A DNA stretch of 26,854 nt from a virus, in IMG/VR virus record IMGVR_UViG_3300044630_001266, positions 1 to 26,854 of that record; one strand, written 5' to 3'. The notes below the pieces were generated by a model. The model made no database searches, had not been told where the DNA came from, and was given only the letters and a program-made list of their open reading frames with translations. A program made the position numbers and the translations under genes. Below, piece after piece: positions 2,653 to 24,850 of this stretch. The stretch's first letter is position 1; every line of letters begins with the position of its first letter.

Positions 2653-3037
2653 TGATGTATGTTGAAACAGATTCTTTCGTAATATTTGGATATAAAGATG
2701 TTAATTCTTGATTTTTTAACGCAAGAAGAATCTTTTGTTCTTTTGCGTCTAGTCTTTCTAACATTTGAATAAACAATGATTCTCTTTGAGCAGGTTTTAA
2801 ATCTTTTCTTCTAAAGATATAAAACTTTCTTACTTCTAAAGTAAGATTTGATGGAGCCATATCTTGTGGCTCAATTGCAGACTTAAATGGTGGACTTGTT
2901 TCTGGCAAATCCCATTTTAAATTGCTATCAAAGTTGTTTTGTAAAACTAATTTTAACTGAGCATTATTCTTGTATTTAACAATGGCAGTTATATCATTAT
3001 TTAGTTCTTCTAATATTTCATAAACACGTCTTCCCAT
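2645..3037 (-). CDS. Conserved T4-like marine phage protein, DUF6433-like
   Basis: A 130-residue protein starting MGRRVYEILEELNN. A strong Shine-Dalgarno, GAGGAG, lies about nine bases before the ATG. The N-terminal helix on duplicated repair-like 'YEILEEL' spacing, the central PP-containing segment and the helical C-terminus with LFIQMLERLDAKEQKILLAL resemble the roughly 120-aa conserved proteins (DUF6433) found beside replication and recombination genes in T4-like cyanophages. Their function is not established. It sits directly downstream of RNase H, and I infer a DNA-metabolism role only from that. The family match is by eye. Confidence 0.6.
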   Translation of the reverse strand: MGRRVYEILEELNNDITAIVKYKNNAQLKLVLQNNFDSNLKWDLPETSPPFKSAIEPQDMAPSNLTLEVRKFYIFRRKDLKPAQRESLFIQMLERLDAKEQKILLALKNQELTSLYPNITKESVSTYINA

Positions 3038-3040
3038 GTT

Positions 3041-3907
3041 TTAAAACTCCTCTATTTCTTGGAGTAATAGACTACAACGTTTTTCAATTAAATAGTTGTA
3101 TACTGTCATTTTATCTCCTGTTGGTTTTATGTTATTGTAAGCATTTAGTATATCATCTACTATATTTTTAGGTATAGAGTCAAGACATACTAGTTTTTGG
3201 TTTCTTAAATAGTTTTTCTTCTGCTCATCGTTTTCACAAGCATTGAAACCTTTTTCTAAGAAATTATTTAATATTTTTTTAGTAATTGGTTTTTGTCTTT
3301 CATCTTTGTTAAAGATATCATCAGGTGAAAGTACATTTGGAACACCATCTCCAGAGTCACCTCTTACTATATGTTCTATTATATATTGCTCAGCTTCTCT
3401 TACTGATGATTTATTAACTTGTTTTTTAAGTAATGGCGAATATTGTTCAACGTTTCCAAATTTTTGTAATTGTTTAAAATCTTTATCAGAAGAAACAATC
3501 ATATGTTTTTCTAAAGGTCTTTCTTTCACTAGTGTAGCAATTACATCGTCTGCTTCAGCATGATTGATATGTAATACTTTATAAGGAAAATATTTAACTA
3601 AATCTTGTCTTACATCAGACATAGTTTCAAAAATAAGTTTCCAATCAACTGGATCTGCTTCTCTATCTTTCTTACGATGTGCTTTATATAAAGGAAATTC
3701 TACTTTTCTCCAAACGTCTTTACCATCAGCACATATAACTAAATCACCATAATCTGCTGAAAATTTCTTCTTATAATATTTAATAGTAGAGAGTATCGCA
3801 TGACGAATGATGTTAGATACTTCTTCCATTGGTCTTCCTTTTTGAACATCTTGTTTAAAAGAAAGTATATTTGCGATTGCTACTTGTGAATAATCAATTA
3901 ATATCAT
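3041..3907 (-). CDS. rnh: RNase H / FEN-family 5' nuclease (T4 Rnh-like)
   Basis: A 288-residue nuclease of the T4 RNase H family, which removes RNA primers and 5' flaps during lagging-strand synthesis. I chose the ATG at 3905-3907 rather than the longer frame to 3934 because it gives the family's compact N-terminus (MILIDYSQVAIA, with metal-binding Asp5) and an ATGA overlap with the upstream gene. Visible acidic metal ligands are Asp61 (CADGKD), Glu118/Asp120/Asp121 (HAEADD), Asp141/Asp143 (SSDKDF) and Asp184/Asp187 (RGDSGDGVPN). The helix-hairpin-helix region follows. The length is close to T4 Rnh (about 305 aa). It probably works with the primase at 15929-16957. Confidence 0.93.
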   Translation of the reverse strand: MILIDYSQVAIANILSFKQDVQKGRPMEEVSNIIRHAILSTIKYYKKKFSADYGDLVICADGKDVWRKVEFPLYKAHRKKDREADPVDWKLIFETMSDVRQDLVKYFPYKVLHINHAEADDVIATLVKERPLEKHMIVSSDKDFKQLQKFGNVEQYSPLLKKQVNKSSVREAEQYIIEHIVRGDSGDGVPNVLSPDDIFNKDERQKPITKKILNNFLEKGFNACENDEQKKNYLRNQKLVCLDSIPKNIVDDILNAYNNIKPTGDKMTVYNYLIEKRCSLLLQEIEEF

Positions 3908-11950: not shown

Positions 11951-12202
11951 TTAACTAAGTAATGAAAATGTAGTCGTAATTATCTTTTCAATTGCTGCTT
12001 TGTATTTCATTGTATCAGCTTCTTCTTGTATTTCTTCAATACGAGCCAAATCATTTAATAGATCTGTATATTCAGCTGTTGATAGTTGTCCTGTGTCATG
12101 TTGATGATTATATCTTATTACTTTAGTTGCTTTTTCTCTTAACCATGCATTATCAGATTGTGTTAATGCTTGCATTTCTTGTATTGCTTCATTTATAGTC
12201 AT
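11951..12202 (-). CDS. Small helical hypothetical protein (83 aa)
   Basis: An 83-residue, mostly helical protein starting MTINEAIQEMQALTQ. It has a GAGGAA ribosome site and its ATG overlaps the stop of the lipoprotein gene by one base. The middle (QLSTAEYTDLLNDLARIEEIQ) looks like a two-helix hairpin. It contains no membrane segment. No family was recognised. Confidence 0.55.
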   Translation of the reverse strand: MTINEAIQEMQALTQSDNAWLREKATKVIRYNHQHDTGQLSTAEYTDLLNDLARIEEIQEEADTMKYKAAIEKIITTTFSLLS

Positions 12203-12624
12203 TATTTGTTCCTCGCTGCAAGTGCATTTGCTATAATATCCACTTGTTTTGTTAAATTAATTACTTTTTCAATACAGTAAAGTTCTTTCATTTTACCTGA
12301 TTTAGAAGAGTCATAAAGACCTCTCATACTTTCAGAAAATGGTCTTACCATTTTTAAAACATCTTCATTTTCTTTTGCTGATGAATAGTAATACAGTTTT
12401 TCTTTTCCTTCCCATATTTTTACTATGGTTTCGTGTGATTTGTCACCAGTACATTGCACTTGTCGTACATCGTATCTTAGATTTGAAATCATTAACATTT
12501 CATTATCATCATATGCTGATGGTAATAATTTCTTAACTGAAAGTATTGCTGCAGGAATGCAAGATGTCAATACTGTTAAAAGGAGTAAAACACTCCATAT
12601 TCTTAACCCTCGCAAGCTAAACAT
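12202..12624 (-). CDS. Putative lipoprotein (140 aa)
   Basis: A 140-residue protein with a basic start, a hydrophobic segment and a lipobox ending LTVLTSC (Cys22), so it should be exported and lipid-anchored. Two more cysteines (QVQC and LYC) could pair outside the cell. A GAGGAT ribosome site lies upstream. The start overlaps the last codons of nrdA by 22 bases. Its role is unknown; superinfection exclusion or envelope action during infection are possibilities. It is longer than usual for an Rz1-type spanin subunit, and the o-spanin candidate of this window lies at 17560-17730. Confidence 0.65.
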   Translation of the reverse strand: MFSLRGLRIWSVLLLLTVLTSCIPAAILSVKKLLPSAYDDNEMLMISNLRYDVRQVQCTGDKSHETIVKIWEGKEKLYYYSSAKENEDVLKMVRPFSESMRGLYDSSKSGKMKELYCIEKVINLTKQVDIIANALAARNK

Positions 12625-15928: not shown

Positions 15929-16957
15929 CTATATTTTACAACGTACCCATTTATTAAAAGCAAGTTCTGCTTCTAGTCCACGATACGTATTTTCATTAAT
16001 TAAATTTACTATATTTATCTTAGGATGTTTTAAAACTATTTCATTTATATCTTTACCAGATATATTTGAAGGGAGCAGGCATACTCCATATCCTAAGCTT
16101 ATACACTTATATATAGATTTACAAATTTCAACATTTCTTGGTTCATTATCTATTATTACTATTACACGTTCTTTATTTTTTAAAAGTCTTTTTATTTCAA
16201 AAGAAGTACCTGCAACAGCAACAGCATTAGGTAAGAACATACTATCAATCGGTCCTTCAACAGCATATATAGTCTTATTCTCATCTAACTTTTCTAAACC
16301 AAATATCTTTTCGTTCTTCTCGTTTGTCTTAATTGTATAATACTTTGGTAATTCTTTTCCTAAAGTACGTCCTTGTATTGCAAGTAAATTCTTTTTCTTA
16401 TCGTAAAATGGTATTACTAACCTTGGATGATCTTCTTCAATCGAAGCAAACTTCGGTGCAACATTGTCATTAACCCATTTTTTAAATGTATTAACCCAAT
16501 ATAAAGATGCAAGGTATTCAGTTGGTATTTTACGTTTTGATAAGTACTTACGAACAGGATGTTCATTTTGTAGAGTGGTGACACACTCAGCATTAAGAAG
16601 ACCAGAAATAGTTTCTTTCTTATTCTCTGGTTTAAATTGGTCAAAGAAGTCTTTAATCGGTTCTTTAGAGACTCCAACTTTAGAATTACTTTTATATTTT
16701 TCAACATTATATTCACTTTCTAATTTAGGATCAATAAATTTTAAAAAATTACTAAACCCCATACTAGCACTACAATTGTGACATTTGAAGTTTAAATTAT
16801 TTTTAATCTTGTAAATAAAACCTCTTGCCTTTAATATACTACGTTTAGAATCTTTACATATTGGACAACTGAAATTCCAAAGATAAGTATTTTTCTTCTT
16901 AAAGTTTCTCAATTTTGGAGATACTAAATCAATGTATTTGATGTCAATAAACAACAT
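15929..16957 (-). CDS. 61: DNA primase, T4 gp61-like
   Basis: A 342-residue primase, the same length as T4 gp61. It has an N-terminal zinc finger with Cys31/Cys34 (CPIC) and Cys59/Cys62 (CHNC), and a TOPRIM core with Glu234 (YAVEGPIDSMF), GTSF near 250-253 and an acidic cluster starting at Asp270 (IIDNEPRN). It makes the RNA primers for lagging-strand synthesis together with the gp41 helicase, which is not in the window. The gene is first after a predicted promoter whose -10 box is only ten bases from the ATG, and has no Shine-Dalgarno. Confidence 0.93.
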   Translation of the reverse strand: MLFIDIKYIDLVSPKLRNFKKKNTYLWNFSCPICKDSKRSILKARGFIYKIKNNLNFKCHNCSASMGFSNFLKFIDPKLESEYNVEKYKSNSKVGVSKEPIKDFFDQFKPENKKETISGLLNAECVTTLQNEHPVRKYLSKRKIPTEYLASLYWVNTFKKWVNDNVAPKFASIEEDHPRLVIPFYDKKKNLLAIQGRTLGKELPKYYTIKTNEKNEKIFGLEKLDENKTIYAVEGPIDSMFLPNAVAVAGTSFEIKRLLKNKERVIVIIDNEPRNVEICKSIYKCISLGYGVCLLPSNISGKDINEIVLKHPKINIVNLINENTYRGLEAELAFNKWVRCKI

Positions 16958-17001: not shown

Positions 17002-17445
17002 TTAACTAAACAATTTTAACAATATTTGGGCTAAACTCTTATATTCCATACCCATAGCAATAGCTAAAATAGCACCACCAGCATACCATTTCCAACGTTC
17101 AATATTTTGTACTTTATTTGATAATTTCTCAATATTGGTTGAACTTGTATTTGATAAATGGTAGCTTACTTCTTTAATTTCTTTATGCACATCCATTATA
17201 CGCATATTTAAATCATGTATTTCGCTATTTAAATGCTCACTCTTTTGTTCATTATTTTCAATTCTTACTTCATGTTGAGAAATTAACTTACTTACTTCTA
17301 ATGAAGCATCTGCTAATTTATCTACATTTCTATCAAGTTTGCCTAATAATGTTTTAAGTAATTCAATATCAGATGTTAATTTAACGAAACGTGACTTAGT
17401 GTTTCCATTTCCATTACCATTACCATTTTCATAGTTATCTGACAT
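17002..17445 (-). CDS. XhlA-like coiled-coil protein with C-terminal membrane anchor
   Basis: A 147-residue protein with an Asn-Gly repeat at residues 7-15, a long heptad-rich coiled coil (about 19-117) and a C-terminal membrane segment that begins WKWYAGGAILAIAMG. This layout matches XhlA-type hemolysin/lysis-associated proteins and some tail-associated coiled-coil proteins. The ATG overlaps the stop of the spanin-like gene by 11 bases, which suggests a shared lysis role. Because the coiled coil is longer than in XhlA, the family call is tentative. Confidence 0.55.
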   Translation of the reverse strand: MSDNYENGNGNGNGNTKSRFVKLTSDIELLKTLLGKLDRNVDKLADASLEVSKLISQHEVRIENNEQKSEHLNSEIHDLNMRIMDVHKEIKEVSYHLSNTSSTNIEKLSNKVQNIERWKWYAGGAILAIAMGMEYKSLAQILLKLFS

Positions 17446-18097
17446 TTTTTTGTAGTCTTTCTGCTTCTTTTACCCAATTTTGTAAAGCAATTAATTTTTC
17501 ACGTACTATATTACATTCTGTATAATTATCAACAGTTGTTTCTAATAACGTTATTAATTCTACTTTATTGTTTTCATTTGTTTTGGACTTTCCATCAACA
17601 CCTCTGGTGGCATTGGGTATTTCGGGGATACCTGTGATGGCTTCATTATGGAGCAATTTGACATCATAAGGAAGAGCACACTGCCTATTAAGATTGTCAG
17701 GGATAATCTTTGATACTTTTGCATGGACATTTTCACCTCTTTCATTTATTTTTTTAACTATTCTCTCTAAATTTTTATCTGAAGCTTCAGACAAATCTTT
17801 TATTTGTTTTTCGTATGTTTTTATTTTATTTTTACTTTCATTTAATGCTTTTTTAGTAGCAGAAGAACTATTCGCATAATTTAATCCTTCTAACCATGTT
17901 CCTAATATTAATACAATTAAAAACATTATACGATAGAAAAATTTAAGTGGGATTGGTATAAAAGGAATAGATGTAATTATAAATCCTACTAGACCTGTAA
18001 GAAATATTGCATGAAACACAAAATCAGGTATTAATGTAAATAATGTTGATAATGTGAAAAAACTACTTAATGATTTTATACTTAAAAATTCAAACAT
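17435..18097 (-). CDS. Rz-like inner-membrane spanin subunit
   Basis: A 220-residue protein with an unusually hydrophobic N-terminus (segments at about 12-43 and 52-68), a charged coiled coil (78-125), then a C-terminal region with paired cysteines (RQCALPYDVKLLHNEA at 138-153 and YTECNIVREKLIALQNWVKE near 192-211). The LLHNEA and ALQxWV pattern is typical of Rz/LysB-type i-spanins, which join an outer-membrane lipoprotein to disrupt the outer membrane at lysis. Most i-spanins have a single membrane segment, so the two or three here are unusual. An o-spanin candidate is nested in the +1 frame at 17560-17730, which strongly supports the call. Confidence 0.72.
   Translation of the reverse strand: MFEFLSIKSLSSFFTLSTLFTLIPDFVFHAIFLTGLVGFIITSIPFIPIPLKFFYRIMFLIVLILGTWLEGLNYANSSSATKKALNESKNKIKTYEKQIKDLSEASDKNLERIVKKINERGENVHAKVSKIIPDNLNRQCALPYDVKLLHNEAITGIPEIPNATRGVDGKSKTNENNKVELITLLETTVDNYTECNIVREKLIALQNWVKEAERLQKNVR
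17560..17730 (-). CDS. Rz1-like outer-membrane spanin lipoprotein nested in Rz
   Basis: A 56-codon frame lies entirely inside the i-spanin gene in the +1 frame, over Rz codons about 123-179. It starts MSMQKYQRLS, has a hydrophobic signal segment (LTILIGSVLFL) and a lipobox ending MMSNC (Cys26). The mature part of about 31 residues is proline-rich (KPSQVSPKYPMPPEV and ESPK), the hallmark of Rz1. GAGGTG lies four bases before the chosen ATG; two nearby in-frame ATGs are alternative starts. A nested lipoprotein with signal, lipobox, prolines and ribosome site is very unlikely by chance. Confidence 0.82.
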   Translation of the reverse strand: MSMQKYQRLSLTILIGSVLFLMMSNCSIMKPSQVSPKYPMPPEVLMESPKQMKTIK

Positions 18098-23272: not shown

Positions 23273-24850
23273 TTATTTTGTTAATCTTGTTCTTTCAATT
23301 TTACGAACAACAGGAACAAGTTTCATAGCAAAATTATTAATATAAGATTTTGGTAATGCTGCTATACGTTTTTCTGCTCGTTCTCTTTCAGCAACTGACA
23401 TATTTGCTGGTGACTTTTTAAATAATAATTTTTTAATTTTATTAATTGCAAGTCTTCTTGCTCTTTTATTTACTACGTCCATTGTTGATGCTCTTTTTAA
23501 AGCAAGACGTAATTTAGCATTTCTTTTTCCTTTTGTTCTTGCAAAACGAATACGTGATTTAATACGTTCTGGTCTTGTAAGAACTTCTTTAATTGTAGGA
23601 ACATCATAAGTAGTATTTTCATCGTCAACTATTTCTAATTCTTCATCATCGTATATATCCAAATAATCGTCATCTTCAAGTGGATCTTCATTATCATACT
23701 TACGAATAATTGCATCCATTTCATAATCATCTAAACCAAAATCAAATTTAGAATCATAAGGATCGTTTGATTCTTTTATTGAAGCTATTTCTGCATCAGA
23801 AACTTCTCCATCTTTTATTATTTCTTTTAATTTTTTATAGAATGTTAAATAATGATACTTCTCAAGCATTTTGTAAATAACATTTTTAGGTAAAGCATTC
23901 TTCTTGCCATACTCACGTATTTCATCTGGTGTTAAGTCAGCATCAAAAACTTCTTTACGATCTTTCATAGTTTGGTCGCCAGCATCTACTAATGCTTTAA
24001 TACCTGACATAATTTCACCAATCTTCTTCGAAACGATTCCTTTTAAGTTTTCAACATTGTCTGGATCTAAACGTTTTAAATCTTGATAATCAACTATGTC
24101 TCTTTCTAATTCACCTTTAACAACATCTAATCTTTTTACTTTGTCTTCGAAATCTTTTGCGTATTTCTCAGGATTGAATTTAAATTCTACTGGTTTTTTA
24201 ATAAATTCGTTTTTTACAATATCAAAAATACCATCACTTAAATTATCATTTCTTTCTTTTAATTTTGGATCTGTTAATACAAAGTAATTAATAGGATGAT
24301 TAGTTCCTGGAACTGTTTTACCATTTATATCTTTTAATGATTTAGCAATTTCTAATCTCTTTTCATCTCTTTGACTTTCTGGAACATCAAAAAGAACATT
24401 AACATCTAAATCAGCATCATCTCTATATTGTTTAGTAAGTATTGAACCAATTAAACTAAATTTTATAACTGGTGCTTTCTTTTTAAATTCTTCTATTTGA
24501 TCTAATATGATTTTTCTTACTGACTCTTTTAATTTTGGTTCTTCTGTATTAGCATTATCAAAAATTACCTTAGCATAAGTCTTTTGTGGTATATCGATAA
24601 CAGATTCGCTTTTACCATACTTACGCATTGCTTCTGCTTTTGTCATTTTATACTTATTATAAAAATCATCAGCTGACAAATCTTGTAAGTCAATTGCCAT
24701 ATTTTTAAACATTCCTTCATCAACTGTTCCTTGAGTATTTTGAGAATCAGAAACTTTTAAATTCTGTACATCTAATAATCTTTTGAAATCTTTGTATGAT
24801 AGAATTCCTCTTTCAAGTGTTTCTTCTTCAGTGACAAATAATGTTGTCAA
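23273..24850 (-). CDS. Nucleotidyltransferase-fold phage protein
   Basis: A protein of up to 525 residues. Near residues 130-160 it has a nucleotidyltransferase signature, SLIGSILTKQYRDDADLDVN: the GS of the helix start and acidic metal-binding residues. The region before it is acidic and helical and the C-terminus is very basic (arginine- and lysine-rich from about residue 430). The start is uncertain: TTG at 24848-24850 gives the full frame and overlaps the divergent AAA+ gene; the first ATG is at 24710-24712 (479 aa). I infer a tRNA- or nucleotide-adding fold, but the function is unknown. It heads the leftward virion cluster. Confidence 0.65.
   Translation of the reverse strand: MTTLFVTEEETLERGILSYKDFKRLLDVQNLKVSDSQNTQGTVDEGMFKNMAIDLQDLSADDFYNKYKMTKAEAMRKYGKSESVIDIPQKTYAKVIFDNANTEEPKLKESVRKIILDQIEEFKKKAPVIKFSLIGSILTKQYRDDADLDVNVLFDVPESQRDEKRLEIAKSLKDINGKTVPGTNHPINYFVLTDPKLKERNDNLSDGIFDIVKNEFIKKPVEFKFNPEKYAKDFEDKVKRLDVVKGELERDIVDYQDLKRLDPDNVENLKGIVSKKIGEIMSGIKALVDAGDQTMKDRKEVFDADLTPDEIREYGKKNALPKNVIYKMLEKYHYLTFYKKLKEIIKDGEVSDAEIASIKESNDPYDSKFDFGLDDYEMDAIIRKYDNEDPLEDDDYLDIYDDEELEIVDDENTTYDVPTIKEVLTRPERIKSRIRFARTKGKRNAKLRLALKRASTMDVVNKRARRLAINKIKKLLFKKSPANMSVAERERAEKRIAALPKSYINNFAMKLVPVVRKIERTRLTK

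Follow-up and report, generated by a model that had tools for sequence, protein, structure and literature searches.

The window analysed here, which is a complete IMG/VR record of a virus (26,854 bases), very probably carries a two-component embedded spanin of the KS5/Cr30 type, which would have an exported and lipidated nested partner and act in lysis by membrane fusion. The coordinates of the two genes and of related features are shown in Table 1. An embedded pair of the Rz/Rz1 type, as the original prediction had proposed, is the best reading of the locus because the outer gene is homologous to i-spanins with an annotated nested o-spanin and because the nested frames are themselves related to one another.

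Table 1 Features of the embedded spanin locus, its surroundings, and the spanin-like pairs of two relatives.
Feature	Location	Strand	Basis
i-spanin (Rz-like), 220 aa	17435..18097	-	ORF; matches to phrog_4952 and phrog_9841; tblastn to annotated i-spanins; Cys140 and Cys195 invariant in the clade
Putative nested o-spanin (Rz1-like lipoprotein), 56 aa	17560..17730	-	+1 frame of the i-spanin gene; kept in 15/15 full-gene IMG/VR contigs; counterparts in distant phages rank high with the nested profile
Shine-Dalgarno-like site GAGGTG of the nested gene	17734..17739	-	3 nt ahead of ATG 17730; read from the sequence
Codon of the putative lipidated Cys	17653..17655	-	Lipobox MSNC; Asn at -1 atypical
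Predicted i-spanin membrane helices, residues about 25-42 and 50-75	17873..18025	-	Hydropathy; low-confidence AlphaFold2 model; alignment with distant relatives (one hydrophobic segment at most)
Coiled-coil protein, Pfam DUF7201 (PF23831, E 2e-11)	17002..17445	-	Next gene downstream; overlaps the i-spanin gene end
DNA primase, synteny anchor	15929..16957	-	phrog_47, E 8e-74
Spanin-like pair of Methylophilales phage Melnitz	L020 3160-3552 and 3488-3895		Overlapping genes for 130 aa (phrog_739, E 5e-17) and for a lipoprotein of 135 aa (phrog_812 Rz-like spanin, E 5e-15)
Spanin-like pair of Pelagibacter phage HTVC008M	L021 3797-4024 and 4190-4330		75 aa (phrog_739, E 4e-6), then a 46-aa lipoprotein without a spanin family match

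Both reading frames were found as originally described, a 56-codon +1 frame inside a gene for 220 aa. The nested frame lies fully within the i-spanin gene, is shifted relative to it and has a start and a ribosome site of its own. Read from its first ATG it covers 17560-17745 and encodes 61 aa; from the ATG at 17730 it encodes 56 aa. GAGGTG ahead of the nested start was also found in the relatives L016 and L040. The frame spans 0.56-0.81 of the i-spanin length. This is near the usual embedded range, in which the o-spanin of ~70% of the pairs extends from 0.4-0.5 to 0.9-1 of the i-spanin according to the sections of PMC6139136 consulted, and the position was therefore counted for an embedded spanin. 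RNA folding at the nested start was nothing special (z 0.61), and the number of Shine-Dalgarno patterns in the window (24 against 17.1 ± 4.3 expected) was left out of the argument. Down the transcript, the gene order is a DUF7207 gene, a 256-aa protein, the i-spanin, the DUF7201-like coiled-coil gene and a T4-type primase. Elsewhere in the window, a 140-aa ORF at 12202-12624 (minus strand) with the canonical lipobox LTSC overlaps the end of the nrdA gene and represents a second, orphan lipoprotein; searches with its protein returned nothing from phage records (E <= 1), PHROGs (E <= 0.01) or Pfam (E <= 0.1). A 525-aa ORF at 23273-24850 (minus strand) matches the nucleotidyltransferase domain PF01909 (E 1.2e-5) and gave nothing below E 0.01 against PHROGs.

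The PHROG search with the 220-aa protein gave matches to phrog_4952 (E 9.2e-14), the description of which is only "signal peptide motif", and to the Rz-like spanin phrog_9841 (E 1.9e-4), while no Pfam or NCBIfam model scored above its cut-off. A tblastn search of 50,697 phage records with this protein returned 15 records at E <= 1, with Bise as the best (E 2e-4) and Salva at 0.2. The same search with the L040 protein, which is 60% identical, returned 28 records at E <= 10, corresponding to 18 distinct phages by name; Mana was the best match (E 2e-6), and Cr30 was among the matches at E 8e-3. The annotation under the tblastn match was o-spanin in Mana, AP3, Salva and Siara, LysC in Carl1, and gp31, noted as Rz1, in KS5. 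The i-spanin is related to those of KS5, Mana, AP3, Salva, Smp131 and the T4-superfamily phage Cr30. A profile of the clade (A2) matched two of the seven genomes of Melnitz, HTVC008M, AG-345-L05, S-WAM2, Salva, Mana and Bise, namely Mana (E 4e-9) and Bise (E 2e-7), and missed Salva.

The protein has the anatomy of an i-spanin, with an N-terminal membrane anchor indicated by hydropathy, the Rz-like PHROG match and a predicted helical periplasmic domain in a low-confidence, mostly helical model. Cys140 and Cys195 are invariant in nine clade i-spanins, and Cys195 is nearly invariant in the wider family. They would provide a periplasmic cysteine in at least one partner of the pair, in agreement with the rule given in the part of PMC6139136 consulted. 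The N-terminal stretch IPDF..H.I..TGLVGFIITSIP is also invariant in nine clade sequences, including L040. The AlphaFold2 model (mean pLDDT 50.9), with helices at residues 25-42 and 50-75, was too poor for a fold search. Lys52 and Arg56, located between the helices or at the start of one, would be consistent with a loop in the cytoplasm and a C-terminus in the periplasm. The i-spanin had been described as atypical in having two or three membrane segments. In agreement with this description, hydropathy gave at least two hydrophobic N-terminal segments in the clade and at most one in the distant relatives (AP3 left out), the structure model being poor; the Smp131 i-spanin, the annotated start of which is perhaps wrong, has none. 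The additional membrane segment at the N-terminus of the clade's i-spanin is new here.

In addition to acting as a spanin, the i-spanin with its N-terminal part of two or three helices might be a multifunctional lysis protein carrying a holin-like hairpin fusion, although we consider this unlikely. The difference in the number of hydrophobic segments and the conservation of the N-terminal region in L040 would fit such a fusion, as would the absence of a holin family match at the cut-offs used among the 30 window ORFs scanned against PHROGs. That scan left out smaller ORFs and a few larger ones, however, and a holin may lie beyond the window. The whole protein had no holin family match in Pfam, NCBIfam or PHROGs, and the structure model is poor. 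A role of the hairpin, conserved to L040, in controlling the timing of the spanin, perhaps in a holin-like manner, appears equally improbable; if true, one 663-base gene would hold three lysis functions in two frames.

Close relatives of the locus were collected from IMG/VR. The scan with the window protein yielded 14 loci, 13 of which have the full gene at 87-100% identity. Two contigs in which the gene is 60% identical were reached through a scan with the primase encoded next to it, and further scans gave no additional contig. One locus with 35 residues of the gene (L018) was excluded from all counts, and L043, L044 and L050, which share contigs with L037 and L040, were not recounted. The 15 full-gene contigs and the window comprise 10 distinct DNA sequences. 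The nested frame is open, and its cysteine and the motif PPEVLM are kept, in all 15 (60-100% i-spanin identity). L037 and L040 come from the IMG data sets 3300020578 and 3300020603, which are listed in the data availability section of a Lake Tanganyika study (PMC8245535). Nothing was found in support of a marine origin, which had been assumed for this DNA: two relatives come from the lake-study data sets, and none was traced to the sea.

The overlapped part was originally described as less AT-rich than its flanks, and the G+C content is indeed 39.2% in the overlap as compared with 22.9% and 24.0% in the parts of the i-spanin gene on either side. GC-ending codons are concentrated in the overlap in the window (19/56 versus 14/164 outside; Fisher p 1.8e-5) and in L040 (18/58 versus 25/158; p 0.02). 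With the i-spanin protein fixed and codons drawn by the phage's own usage, the 61-codon +1 stretch was free of stops in 1.8% of 20,000 draws, and 0.06% of the fixed-protein codon draws had, anywhere in the gene, a +1 frame that starts with ATG and contains a relaxed lipobox. The whole-window scan gave two lipobox-like ORF starts, and 6 of 20 first-order Markov windows had one each. As a lipobox-like start is not rare by chance, the case rests on conservation and not on the motif.

The features read in the nested gene were largely confirmed: GAGGTG, a hydrophobic segment, the cysteine and a mature part with 6 prolines in 31 residues are present, while the lipobox is atypical. MSNC, with Asn at -1, fails the PROSITE-type [AGS]C pattern in the window and L016. 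Thus, when relatives are checked for nested lipoboxes, the cysteine is kept in all examined, but the clade's MSNC does not satisfy the strict pattern, which is passed by L040 (canonical MFAC), Cr30 and Bise. A candidate lipoprotein of HTVC008M (LLTNC), in which position -1 is again Asn, does not match [AGS]C either. Deviant spanin lipoboxes exist, and one of them, AWAC, was shown to work (Kongari et al., PMC6139136, in the part consulted). The nested protein had no match among the PHROG, Pfam and NCBIfam models. Its tail is CSIMKPSQVSPKYPMPPEVLMESPKQMKTIK in the window, CSTMKQQDTGRYPMPPEVLMESPKKLKPIN in L040, CANKPVTLVTFPNPPEHLMKPPVALKPV... in Cr30 and CSTTPPPKASFPTPPELLMRPPPALKPL... in Bise. 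The motif PE-x-LM occurs in the nested tail of six of nine distant phages (Cr30, Bise, Smp131, KS5, Mana and AP3), and the tails of 20Sep420 (PADMM), Salva (SPEMM) and Pluto (PPKTAM) deviate from it.

These nine phages (Cr30, Smp131, Pluto, KS5, 20Sep420, Salva, Mana, Bise and AP3) were examined from among the 18 distinct tblastn phages. In all nine, a nested +1 frame encodes a hydrophobic segment and a cysteine, and the frame is annotated in the records of Salva, Mana, AP3 and KS5. Homologues with a stop in the +1 frame or without the cysteine, which the original prediction would have taken as evidence against it, were thus seen neither in the 15 contigs nor in these nine of the 18 phages. 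The i-spanins of the distant phages are only 17-26% identical, yet their nested frames are related and share a C-terminal motif. A nested profile built from the window clade alone was run against 1554 six-frame segments taken from 13 loci. The nested frame of Bise ranked first (E 5e-5), followed by Cr30 (3), Smp131 (4), 20Sep420 (5), Salva (6), Mana (8), KS5 (15), AP3 (18) and Pluto (26). Bise alone was above the inclusion threshold, two unrelated segments were in the first eight, and one HTVC008M segment outranked Cr30.

Similarity of the nested tail to that of the window was also compared with codon shuffles in which the i-spanin protein was kept fixed. In the distant test, which covered eight phages and excluded AP3, 0 of 1000 shuffles reached the observed similarity for Cr30 and Bise, and the P values were 0.001 for Salva, 0.002 for 20Sep420, 0.004 for Smp131 and 0.07-0.09 for KS5, Mana and Pluto. 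L014, L015, L016 and L040 all gave 0/1000; they share the nested frame by recent descent, and weight was therefore given to the eight distant phages alone. Overall, homology of the nested o-spanin is strong for Bise, supportive for Cr30, Smp131, 20Sep420 and Salva, and weak for KS5, AP3, Mana and Pluto. The profile, the codon shuffles and the excess of GC-ending codons favour conservation of the nested frame for its own sake.

Tests within the clade did not reach significance. Synonymous differences inside and outside the overlap did not differ significantly in any of eight pairs (window versus L040, 7/32 against 29/96, p 0.50; the other seven, p 0.12-1.0). In a forward null based on the low synonymous rate of the flank, the window-L040 comparison was compatible with chance (P 0.38 for identity and 0.15 for the mature half). 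Codon-position counts gave a lowest p of 0.13 among six comparisons, and the dual-frame selection that had been expected to appear in such rates was thus not detected in the clade. Retention of GC-ending codons from the window to L040 was 7/10 inside and 2/5 outside (p 0.29). The clade has few synonymous changes and a strong bias to AT-ending codons. We read these outcomes as low power, yet keep them as a negative result, and support for the nested frame accordingly comes mainly from the distant comparisons.

It is very unlikely that the nested frame is open by accident and persists through the conservation of an outer spanin-like membrane protein. The non-significant synonymous-rate and position tests within the clade, the frequency of lipobox-like starts (~0.3 per simulated window) and the atypical lipobox are compatible with an accident. 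An accidental frame is difficult to reconcile with related nested frames and a shared C-terminal motif at such low i-spanin identity, or with the codon-shuffle nulls and the concentration of GC-ending codons in the overlap. The codons for IPNATR and DGKSK are, moreover, identical in DNA between the window and L040, and annotated o-spanins lie at the same place in other phages. Pairing of the i-spanin with an unlinked lipoprotein, such as the 140-aa LTSC protein (12202-12624), which would leave the nested frame a relic, is still harder to credit: that protein has a canonical lipobox and no family match and the nested lipobox of the clade is non-canonical, but no i-spanin-like gene was recognised beside it, and PPEVLM is kept in the nested tail of every clade member seen, which means that the tail is not decaying.

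Among the matches listed, the primase was closest to those of Melnitz (43.7%) and HTVC008M (42.6%), and DUF7201-like proteins occupy the same place in both genomes (22% identity). The spanin-like pairs at the same genomic position in these marine relatives (Table 1) are new here; both are annotated merely as hypothetical proteins. Like the pair in the window, they are located upstream of the DUF7201-like coiled-coil gene and the primase, whereas the Melnitz pair only overlaps and the HTVC008M pair is separated, in contrast to the embedded pair of the window. With profile A2, nothing related to the i-spanin of the window was found in the two genomes. As a control, phrog_739 matched 9 of 14 named cellular genomes and is thus unspecific; in eight clade contigs it gave one match, at the i-spanin of L040 itself. 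The Melnitz case therefore rests on the lipoprotein match and the position, and the HTVC008M case is weaker. In the consulted part of the Melnitz paper (PMC9004378), the word "spanin" appears once, about lambda, and the pair is not reported; Melnitz is said there to be without lysin-like genes other than gp67, and curli pores are proposed to have a role in lysis.

DUF1353 proteins with an N-terminal hydrophobic segment adjoin the spanin-like pairs of Melnitz (L020 3896-4501) and HTVC008M (L021 3176-3781), and each is possibly a lysis-related enzyme. Both genomes have DUF1353 and GH108, and neither family was found in four clade contigs (0/4 each). A phage lysozyme was present in one of the four, inside a 995-aa frame that is perhaps a tail-lysozyme protein. 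An endolysin of the clade was not found in these four contigs, which are or may be fragments, and neither an endolysin nor a holin was recognised adjoining the nested pair.

By analogy with Rz/Rz1 (PMC6139136, in part), the two proteins of the embedded spanin would be translated, the nested one lipidated, and the complex formed between them would fuse the membranes. The 220-aa i-spanin would be anchored in the inner membrane with its helical domain in the periplasm, and the 56-aa nested protein would be exported, lipidated on its cysteine and moved to the outer membrane, where its proline-containing tail may contact the C-terminal half of the i-spanin. After removal of the wall by an endolysin, the complex would join the inner and outer membranes and disrupt the outer membrane, so that virions are freed. 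The mechanism is ordinary, and the embedded arrangement is already known from other phages. The interest of the locus is moderate and lies in the annotation of aquatic phages, the odd lipobox and the extra membrane segment. The locus adds a T4-related clade, with two members from a lake study, to the phages with an identifiable outer-membrane lysis system, and it fits the 2018 report that nested o-spanins are missed by gene callers (PMC6139136, in the part consulted). Upstream of the DUF7201-like gene and primase, the spanin-like pairs of marine relatives are different ones, and this position can be checked in the genomes of cyanophages listed as lacking spanins.

The consulted part of the survey by Kongari et al. 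(2018; PMC6139136) lists 182 embedded pairs, including the group of KS5, Smp131, phiRSA1 and RSY1 and the singletons Cr30 and phiW-14. It places T4 itself in a separated spanin family, and 20 of its 91 spanin-less phages infect Prochlorococcus or Synechococcus. Cr30 groups by gp20 with DLP6, PhiM12 and PhiN3, which are assigned to the T4 superfamily (PMC5349666, in the part consulted). The suggestion that such a pair had not been pointed out for marine T4-like phages therefore has to be corrected, since the embedded pair of Cr30 was listed in 2018 (PMC6139136, Tables 3 and 4). Among the open-licence titles listed, none was on an embedded pair in T4-like lake phages, and the words spanin, holin and lysis are absent from the main text of a pelagimyophage survey (PMC7029224).

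The T4 spanins PseT.3/PseT.2 are encoded by separate, non-overlapping i- and o-spanin genes, whereas the pair in the window is nested; the T4 genes were assayed by complementation of an induced lambda Rz-am Rz1-am lysogen in PMC6139136. A unimolecular spanin of the T1 gp11 kind has an N-terminal lipobox and a C-terminal membrane helix; the 220-aa protein is different, and its hydrophobic part is N-terminal only. The lambda Rz/Rz1 pair is likewise embedded, with a +1 frame, a signal segment, a lipid-bearing cysteine and a proline-rich mature part (in part from PMC6139136), and family searches, as opposed to a direct comparison with lambda, gave no match to the window pair at the family level. 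The Burkholderia phages KS5, AP3 and Mana and the Stenotrophomonas phage Smp131 (Peduoviridae) have homologous i-spanins with a conserved cysteine and embedded spanins of the KS5 group, and a nested +1 o-spanin is annotated in KS5, AP3 and Mana in the same layout as in the window. Unlike the window, these four phages are P2-like, and their spanins lie beside holin/endolysin or membrane-protein/lytic-enzyme genes. The Caulobacter phage Cr30 shares phrog_4952 (E 2e-48 for Cr30) and a nested +1 lipoprotein-like frame with a FPNPPEHLMKPPVALKP tail with the window. Its i-spanin (AGS80943; L045 2683-3240) is about 21% identical to that of the window and has one hydrophobic segment, and its nested frame (2924-3169), which is without annotation in the record, has a canonical lipobox. 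The Cr30 pair is located about 2.2 kb upstream of the DNA primase gene, and a primase gene also lies downstream of the pair in the window.
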